Positions 41,697-43,293 of a stretch of 64,000 nucleotides of DNA are shown in pieces (the stretch's first letter is position 1; each line of letters starts with the position of its first letter). The notes under the pieces are model-generated. The model searched no databases and was not told the DNA's origin. It was given only the letters and a program-made list of their open reading frames with translations. This DNA comes from Candidatus Melainabacteria bacterium. GTDB taxonomy: Bacteria; Cyanobacteriota; Vampirovibrionia; Obscuribacterales; Obscuribacteraceae. The DNA is taken from NCBI GenBank assembly GCA_003963305.1, contig RXJR01000020.1, positions 108,256 to 172,255 on the forward strand, read 5' to 3'. A program made the translations under genes and the position numbers.

Positions 41697-42254
41697 ATGC
41701 AGCATGATTGGTCATCACTAATTTCACTCGCCACTACTTTCGCCGATGCGACCACAGCGGTCACGGCTGCGTCAGCACCCCTTCCTCCCAGTCAAACGCG
41801 TGGCTGGCAAGTTATCTGCGTAACTGTTCTTTGCAGCACACTCGCTCAAGCAGTCAAAATTGTGACCAAGCTAATCAGGACCGGAAAGCTCGACCTGAGA
41901 ATGCTCGCCAAGACAGGTGGAATGCCGTCGAGCCACAGCTGCTGCACTATGGGAATGGCAGTTTCGGTCGGGCTGATTGAAGGATTCAACTCAGTTTCGT
42001 TTGCTATTGCATTGTGCCTTGCAATGATTGTCATGTACGACGCAGCCGGCGTCAGACGGCATGTTGGGCTGCAAGCCAAGGTCATGAACGAGATGATGAC
42101 GGAATTGTTTTCGGACCACCCGCGTCTATCTTCTGAGCGTATTAAAGAATTCCTAGGGCATACACCGAAGGAAGTTTTCGTCGGAGCGATACTGGGATCT
42201 GTGATCGCATGGTTGTTCAACATGTGGGCCGTGAGTCATTTTGCGCAAGTTTGA
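41697..42254 (+). CDS. Divergent PAP2-family (DUF212) membrane protein
   Basis: This 185-residue membrane protein has the DUF212 marks KLDLRMLAKTGGMPSSHSC, VMYDAAGVRRHVGLQAKVMN and LGHTPKEVFVGAILGS. The family is remotely related to PAP2 phosphatases and to vanadium haloperoxidases. About four helices are visible. In cyanobacteria and plants such proteins are often next to prenyl diphosphate synthases, as here, which suggests a role with isoprenoid diphosphates; that is inference. It starts 19 bases after the synthase. Confidence 0.88.
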   Translation: MQHDWSSLISLATTFADATTAVTAASAPLPPSQTRGWQVICVTVLCSTLAQAVKIVTKLIRTGKLDLRMLAKTGGMPSSHSCCTMGMAVSVGLIEGFNSVSFAIALCLAMIVMYDAAGVRRHVGLQAKVMNEMMTELFSDHPRLSSERIKEFLGHTPKEVFVGAILGSVIAWLFNMWAVSHFAQV

Positions 42255-42337
42255 CAAGCGATGTCACGCACCGCAAAACCCTGATTATGTGAAAAGAGTG
42301 TAATACATGACTTCCGCGCTTTCTTGTAACTTTGCTA

Positions 42338-42343
42338 TATAAT
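42338..42343 (+). promoter_or_regulatory. Candidate -10 element for the tandem-RHH transcript
   Basis: A perfect TATAAT lies about 325 bases before the gene at 42667. No good -35 hexamer is seen at 16-18 bases. Transcription from about 42350 would create a long leader. Confidence 0.45.
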
Positions 42344-42349
42344 CAAGGT

Positions 42350-42666
42350 CTTGGAAAGGGTTGCCAGGTTCACTCCCGAAGACTACTGACAAAGTTAGTG
42401 ATCGAGAGTTTTGATTGAAAGAAAACAAAATCTTTCAATTTGAATAACGGAACAAACGTTAGGAACATGTCACTTTTCAAGGGGAACCATTGATCTAAGC
42501 TATTAGTCAATGGATGTGCGTTGGAGGGTAGCGAAAGCTATCGTTTAAAAACAAGCAAGATATCACTTGCGATACCAGTCGGGTTCCGATCTTTAGAAAA
42601 GGAGGAAAGGCAGAGATTGACAAATAAGCTAATCGAAAAAAGCTTTGTTCTGCTGCCGCAAACTGA
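42350..42666 (+). ncRNA. Long structured 5' leader
   Basis: This leader of about 317 bases contains several separate hairpins. One is an 8-bp stem (ATTGAAAG/CTTTCAAT, 42414-42439). A second is an interrupted 11-bp stem (CCATTGA-T-CTAA/TTAG-TCAATGG, 42487-42513). A third is TAGC-GAAA-GCTA, closing a GNRA tetraloop (42529-42540), and the fourth is GCAAG/CTTGC (about 42555-42570). The leader ends with the strong ribosome-binding tract AAAGGAGGAA and a 17-codon frame. It resembles no riboswitch class I know. It could be an autoregulatory leader or an independent RNA. Confidence 0.55.
42598..42607 (+). promoter_or_regulatory. Shine-Dalgarno tract complementary to the 3' UTR
   Basis: AAAGGAGGAA is an unusually strong ribosome-binding tract. 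It is the exact reverse complement of TTCCTCCTTT at 43246-43255, in the 3' UTR of the same transcript. Ten base pairs could close the mRNA into a loop and block the site. Confidence 0.6.
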
Positions 42667-42670
42667 ATGA
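42617..42670 (+). CDS. Possible 17-residue leader peptide
   Basis: A TTG at 42617, following the AAAGGAGGAAAGG tract, opens the frame MTNKLIEKSFVLLPQTE, ending in a TGA that overlaps the ATG of the next gene (ATGA). The next gene has no Shine-Dalgarno of its own, so its translation may depend on ribosomes ending this frame. The start codon is rare and the reading is inferred. Confidence 0.45.
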   Translation: MTNKLIEKSFVLLPQTE

Positions 42671-43233
42671 ATACAACGGTTCAAACAAACACTTCCGTGA
42701 AGACTACTTCGCCACGACGTTCGCGTTTTCCTGGCAAAGAGTCTGGTTCGGTTTCGTTCAATTTGACCGCGCTCGGCCGCCAGTTGCTCAAAGAGCAAGC
42801 TGCAAGCGCAGGCGTATCCAATGGCGACTATGTCGAAATGCTCATTCGTGAGCGCGCCGGCATGCCTCCACTGAGATTGCCAGCATCTGCTAAGCAAACC
42901 GGTCCAAAGGGCGGCGCTAAATCGTTCTTCTTCGGCAAAAACCGTGGAACGACCACCGCTGTCTGCGTAACACCCATGGCACACCGTCTTTTGGACGAGC
43001 AAGTTGCAGCGTCTCGCATGAGCCGCGGTGACTATATAGAATATTTGCTCCGCGAAAAAGGTGGCGTGATCGAAGAAAGCATCACTGCAGCTATCGCCGC
43101 TCAAGCAGCACAGCCGCAGCCAGTTGCAGCTCCCCAACAATCGTTTGCTCCTCCAGTAGCCGAACAAGTTACTGAAGTTGCTTACATACAACCTACAGTT
43201 TCAACAACTACTGACTGGAACACCAGCAACTAG
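42667..43233 (+). CDS. Tandem ribbon-helix-helix-like protein
   Basis: This 188-residue protein has two copies of a 38-residue module of the form strand, helix, turn, helix. Copy one (about 31-68) has SVSFNLTALGRQLLKEQ and SNGDYVEMLIRERAG. Copy two (about 98-135) has TAVCVTPMAHRLLDEQ and SRGDYIEYLLREKGG. This resembles a ribbon-helix-helix DNA-binding domain, which normally works as a dimer; a tandem copy could fold as a one-chain dimer. The N-terminus is basic and the last 50 residues are Ala/Gln/Pro-rich. A regulatory or nucleoid role is likely but unproven. The gene has a long leader, a coupled short frame and a 3' UTR element. Confidence 0.7.
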   Translation: MNTTVQTNTSVKTTSPRRSRFPGKESGSVSFNLTALGRQLLKEQAASAGVSNGDYVEMLIRERAGMPPLRLPASAKQTGPKGGAKSFFFGKNRGTTTAVCVTPMAHRLLDEQVAASRMSRGDYIEYLLREKGGVIEESITAAIAAQAAQPQPVAAPQQSFAPPVAEQVTEVAYIQPTVSTTTDWNTSN

Positions 43234-43245
43234 TCTGAAACCTAG

Positions 43246-43255
43246 TTCCTCCTTT
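43246..43255 (+). promoter_or_regulatory. 3' UTR anti-Shine-Dalgarno element
   Basis: TTCCTCCTTT lies between the stop codon and the terminator. It pairs perfectly over ten bases with the ribosome-binding tract at 42598-42607. It also resembles the 3' tail of 16S rRNA. Confidence 0.55.
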
Positions 43256-43258
43256 AAG

Positions 43259-43293
43259 AGCCCTTGCAGAAATGCGAGGGCTTTTGATTTTTG
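43259..43293 (+). terminator. Intrinsic terminator of the tandem-RHH gene
   Basis: AGCCCTTGC pairs with GCGAGGGCT (one G-T pair, six-base loop), followed by TTTGATTTTTGATT. It lies 25 bases after the stop codon. Confidence 0.85.

Follow-up and report, generated by a model that had tools for sequence, protein, structure and literature searches.

A conserved 3' UTR complement of a hairpin-bridged ribosome-binding site suggests a self-limiting switch in Obscuribacterales

Introduction

Bacterial 3' untranslated regions (UTRs) that close the Shine–Dalgarno (SD) sequence of their own mRNA are, to our knowledge, known in very few cases. The question raised by the locus described here is whether it adds another. 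The locus lies in a 64,000-nt stretch of the forward strand of Candidatus Melainabacteria bacterium (assembly GCA_003963305.1, contig RXJR01000020.1, positions 108,256–172,255), which we call the window and to which all coordinates refer. An earlier note on this DNA had proposed that perfectly complementary elements in the leader and short 3' UTR of one gene could hide its ribosome-binding site, much as in icaR of Staphylococcus aureus. We have compared 45 orthologous loci, reduced to 32 lineage representatives (labelled L0xx) for counts in the 3' UTR; the features are collected in Table 1. Taken together, the comparison suggests an old self-limiting switch on the amount of a ribbon-helix-helix (RHH) protein in an order that is related to the cyanobacteria but non-photosynthetic.

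Table 1. Layout of the locus, in window coordinates.
Feature	Position	Strand	Basis or remark
Conserved promoter region: block GTAATACATGACTTCC; -10 TATAAT	42300-42315; 42338-42343	+	Similar place in nearly all orthologous loci
Leader, long and structured; blocks CAAGGTCTTGGAAAGGGTTGCCAGG, GCGTTGG and TACCAGTCGGGTTCC	42344-42597; blocks 42344-42368, 42518-42524 and 42573-42587	+	Alignments
SD AAAGGAGGAAA, 5' arm of the proposed long-range duplex; core GGAGG	42598-42608; core 42601-42605	+	Core invariant in 45 loci
Bridging hairpin; 5' arm GGCAG, 3' arm CTGCC	42609-42657; arms 42609-42613 and 42653-42657	+	Fixed geometry, covarying arms
Nine-nt pre-AUG segment GCAAACTGA, possible second target of the 3' UTR	42658-42666	+	Suggestive complementarity in several relatives
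Gene for 188-aa predicted tandem RHH protein with variable C-terminal tail	42667-43233	+	AlphaFold2, Foldseek, weak NikA-like Pfam match
3' UTR anti-SD element TTCCTCCTTT, 3' arm of the proposed duplex	43246-43255	+	CCTCC(TTT) in 24/32 lineage representatives
Intrinsic terminator hairpin and T-rich tail	43254-43290	+	Extended stem overlaps the anti-SD element by 1-2 bases

The protein and its upstream region

The 188-residue product is, according to its predicted structure, a tandem RHH protein specific to Obscuribacterales. The AlphaFold2 model has the beta-alpha-alpha fold in two copies within one chain (E28-32 H35-48 H52-64; E96-100 H103-116 H120-132), with a mean pLDDT of 64.7 overall and around 90 within both domains. 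The nearest solved structures found by Foldseek, with weak E-values, are chains of the F-plasmid relaxosome (E 0.02, probability 0.99), which we take to be TraY, and AvtR; the sole Pfam match, NikA-like, falls below threshold. Residues 1 to ~135 are nearly invariant across the orthologues, which occur in 48 of the 53 genomes of the order and in all 22 of those of good quality, the named loci belonging mostly to Obscuribacterales or Melainabacteria metagenome-assembled genomes. In a sample of 292 genomes from the phylum, the single match was the window's own genome.

The neighbouring gene on the upstream side (41697–42254) belongs to DUF212 (divergent PAP2). Next comes a very conserved promoter region (42300–42368), consisting of GTAATACATGACT, then TATAAT more than 20 nt downstream, then CAAGGTCTTGGAAAGGGTTGCCAGG; the spacing from block to TATAAT is not that expected of a usual -35 element, and an activator or other factor may therefore bind there. 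The leader has a fold z-score of -3.65 (42350–42700), and many lineages show hardly any variation in its blocks GCGTTGG and TACCAGT-GGGTTCC. No consensus helix found support in these blocks, and RNAalifold, applied to the whole leader, returned the bridging hairpin described below, one two-pair helix and nothing else. A known leader RNA or riboswitch was rejected, since the best Rfam score, 14.6 bits, lies below the cut-off of 40, is at chance level and concerns the opposite strand.

A split ribosome-binding site

The SD does not stand at normal spacing, and the earlier note overlooked what lies downstream of it. In the window, GGAGG and the ATG (42667) are 61 nt apart, and the gap, which measures 38–83 nt across all 45 loci, is spanned by a conserved hairpin. 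In 41 of the 45, the 5' arm of this hairpin starts 3 nt past GGAGG and the 3' arm stops 9 nt before the ATG, so that the layout reads GGAGG-3 nt-[GGCAG...CTGCC]-9 nt-AUG with a variable loop. The arms covary among the loci (GGCAG/CTGCC, GGTAG/CTGCC, GGCGG/CTGCC, GGCAG/TTGCC, GGCGA/TCGCC and GGTT/AACC). An SD too distant from its AUG is accompanied by an intervening hairpin that would shorten the gap. That the geometry stays constant while the loop varies argues strongly that the hairpin carries the SD up to the start codon, in the manner of phage T4 genes 25 and 38. It is in this sense that we regard the ribosome-binding site, as read from the alignments, as 'split'.

The ATG does not appear to be misplaced, since an in-frame stop codon stands immediately 5' of it in 34 of 45 loci (TGAATG in the window, 42664–42669) and no other start codon lies downstream of the SD in 43 of 45. 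No conserved upstream open reading frame ends at the pre-ATG stop. A leader peptide or translational coupling was considered and rejected: in the window a frame of 17 codons with a TTG start does overlap the ATG, but those same 43 loci have no start with which to begin one. The SD core matches the expected 16S rRNA tail GGATCACCTCCTT, which was found, exactly or as a one-base variant, in 31 of the 53 genomes of the order; it was not found in the window's own genome, from whose assembly it is perhaps absent. With an SD bridged over such a distance, the start of this gene would be misjudged both by gene finders and by calculators of ribosome-binding sites.

An anti-SD element in front of the terminator

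The ten-base complementarity on which the earlier note was built is exact: AAAGGAGGAA (42598–42607, + strand) and TTCCTCCTTT match at 10/10 positions. The 3' element was also correctly placed between stop codon and terminator, as it lies 12 nt past the TAG (43231–43233) and abuts the terminator hairpin; a terminator-like hairpin follows the gene in all relatives examined. This 10-mer is expected 0.13 times on both strands of the whole window, so that a match within the ~20-nt 3' UTR would be of the order of 1e-5 by chance.

Among the lineage representatives, CCTCC occurs in the 3' UTR in 24 of 32, compared with a mean of 2.8 and a maximum of 8 over 2000 dinucleotide-shuffled sets. No other of the 1024 5-mers is as common in these 3' UTRs, where CCTCCTT is the top 7-mer, and the density of CCTCC per kb is 10.2 in the 3' UTR, 1.4 in the coding sequence and 0.1 in the leader. 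The element mostly takes the form T-CCTCC-TTT, complementary to AAAGGAGGA, and stands shortly 5' of the terminator. Both families of the order carry it; between genera, the identity of the 3' UTRs is near the shuffled level outside the element, whereas CCTCCTTT is mostly kept. As in icaR, a motif in the 3' UTR complements the mRNA's own SD; in the window it does so over ten bases, and the motif is conserved in three-quarters of the lineages. Across the genome of the window, TTCCTCCTTT is not clearly enriched (14 occurrences against 10 for the control). On the tree of the gene the element looks ancestral: it is assigned to the root, and some four subsequent losses or shifts account for its absences (L060/L064; L058; the clade L059/L070/L076/L082; and L073).

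Evidence that the two arms pair

If the arms pair, compensatory changes might be found in relatives, and two candidate cases were seen. In L073, the leader reads AAAGGGAG and the 3' UTR CTCCCTTT, which is a matched change in both arms and not plain loss, and in the sister lineages L074 and L075 the flank has changed on both sides, from AGAC...GTCT to AGAT...ATCT. In the flanks as a whole, a fixed-register comparison of SD and 3' arm gave no cognate excess (p = 0.42). Because the SD hardly varies, covariation between the arms is nearly without power.

Relatives keep the arms together only in part: both are conserved across the order, but 7 of the 32 representatives have the SD without a clearly free 3' arm (L058, L060, L064 and L059/L070/L076/L082). 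In L064, the terminator stem, about 27–65 nt past the stop, is made of AAGGAGGAAT and ATTCCTCCTT; it contains the anti-SD, which is thus locked in the terminator. In L059/L070/L076/L082, from which CCTCC has been lost, the leader has TCGGAAG just 5' of the SD and the 3' UTRs have GTTC(C/T)GA; the latter could possibly pair with TCGGAA as a relocated contact.

When 3' UTRs were swapped among lineages, in permutation tests uncorrected for relatedness, the cognate 3' UTR was not significantly better for the SD arm alone (p = 0.09–0.14) and was better for a composite target of SD and pre-AUG segment (p = 0.048 overall, 0.013 among element-bearing lineages). Complementarity of the 3' UTR to the pre-AUG segment by itself (mean z -0.52, n = 31; Stouffer -2.9, uncorrected for relatedness; swap test not significant) is suggestive only. 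Folding of the full transcript of the window, with inferred ends, predicts SD–3' UTR pairing of 0.77. Such pairing is predicted at 0.5 or above in about half of the element-bearing lineages; in the remaining half or so there is little of it, and the SD is predicted to pair with the leader or the coding sequence.

Conservation is thus strong, specificity for the gene's own SD plausible and proof from covariation thin. Given arms that are conserved order-wide and the matched change in L073, the reading that fits best is that the two UTRs pair and so conceal the ribosome-binding site, as the earlier note had proposed, although the swap with the SD alone did not reach significance and seven lineages are without a clearly free arm.

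Other explanations of the element

The end of the mRNA might instead be cleaved off to give a small RNA with a CCUCCUUU seed that would pair in trans with the strong SDs of other mRNAs as well as with its own. Some small RNAs typically have CU-rich anti-SD seeds; the UCCCC motif of icaR, according to its description, is common to S. aureus small RNAs (PMC3868564); and in this genome AAAGGAGG is found at normal spacing from an ATG in 25 places against 5 for the control, about 20 extra. We nevertheless consider action in trans unlikely, because strong SDs of this type are rare in the genome, the 3' change in L073 tracks its own leader and no sequence is conserved past the SD complement; moreover, Hfq was not detected in the genome, which lowers the odds of a small RNA acting in trans. 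A little less probable again is that the two UTRs pair so as to stabilise the mRNA or shield it from a nuclease, with no limit on translation. The precedent here is Bacillus subtilis hbs, which also encodes a DNA-binding protein and whose 14-nt 5'/3' UTR interaction is reported to protect against RNase Y (PMC7821165, PMC7509114). At the present locus, however, the 5' arm is the SD itself, and the pairing must therefore compete with ribosomes.

It is also improbable, and slightly more so, that CCTCCTTT is kept for some other local job, be it as the site of an RNA-binding protein, as part of the terminator or as an antiterminator, with an incidental match to the SD. The element does abut the terminator in nearly every lineage, and for a few of them pairing with a GAGG or GGAG at the foot of the terminator would be possible, but no such alternative is apparent in the window, L062, L069 or L080, and an accidental match to an invariant SD is unlikely. 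An antiterminator role of CCTCC, judged by eye, was inconsistent among lineages and was rejected. Chance similarity in one genome might be entertained for a motif so short, SD complements not being rare; it is scarcely credible for one present in 24 of 32 lineages, where 2.8 are expected, in two families, and kept between genera whose remaining 3' UTRs are unalignable.

A proposed mechanism

The reading that we prefer, and hold to be rather probable, is that the 3' UTR folds back, closes the split ribosome-binding site and limits translation, as in icaR. The mRNA would carry both the split site and a pre-terminator anti-SD resembling the 16S rRNA tail. Ribosomes would load until the 3' end is made, whereupon the tail would close the site: once the 3' UTR has been transcribed, UUCCUCCUUU would pair with AAAGGAGGAA of the same mRNA, and in some lineages neighbouring 3' bases may also pair with the pre-AUG segment. 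Closure would leave fewer further rounds of initiation and may create a substrate for RNase III; the genome encodes RNase III, so that cleavage as in icaR is possible. Before the 3' end exists, the SD could be held by local pairing in the leader, which is predicted in many lineages; local structure holds the SD early in aapA3 (PMC6733600), and early holding by local pairing is suggested for icaR. The outcome would be a ceiling on the output of the conserved tandem RHH protein.

More tentatively, and with the balance of our opinion leaning slightly against it, these features may form one ancient, order-wide architecture, not described before as a unit, in which a hairpin-bridged ribosome-binding site is shut by a copy of the 16S anti-SD at the 3' terminus, and most translation of the RHH mRNA takes place before its 3' end has been made or once that end has been removed. 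The variants, losses and shifts of the arms among the lineages provide a natural series for testing.

Comparison with known systems

We found no description in the literature of the gene or of a hairpin-bridged SD combined with a 3' anti-SD; hbs is compared here through a review alone. For icaR, pairing of the 5' and 3' UTRs is experimental, and its 3' UTR motif complements its own SD (PMC3868564). The present locus shares with it, as described there, the 3' motif directed at the gene's own SD, a product of the DNA-binding regulator type and the presence of RNase III. However, the icaR 3' UTR is long, with UCCCCUG 260 nt past the stop (PMC3868564), whereas the element here is 12 nt past the stop and next to the terminator; the passages on icaR that we consulted do not mention a hairpin-bridged SD, which is present here. 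According to a review, the icaR motif is missing even in S. epidermidis (PMC7821165), whereas the element here spans two families. An order-wide case would demonstrate that control of this kind can be ancient and under selection, in contrast to icaR, which is not conserved between sister species. The same review includes RNAIII/hld as a further 5'/3' case and hbs, in which, as is proposed for our locus, the two UTRs pair in an mRNA for a protein of the DNA-binding type; hbs differs in that its 14-nt pairing protects from RNase Y (Braun 2017, via PMC7821165).

In the type I toxin mRNAs hok and aapA, a 3'-end anti-SD closes the SD of the full-length mRNA, and local structures hold it earlier (PMC6733600). 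The 3'-end anti-SD is common to these and to the mRNA described here, which, unlike those of the small toxins, encodes a conserved 188-aa RHH protein; a type I toxin–antitoxin mRNA was accordingly rejected, the product being no short hydrophobic toxin. Finally, in phage T4 genes 25 and 38 a hairpin between SD and AUG shortens their effective spacing (PMC3014915), as we believe it does here, but the distances are 27 and 22 nt in the phage and 38–83 nt in these bacterial chromosomes, where a 3' UTR anti-SD is found in addition.
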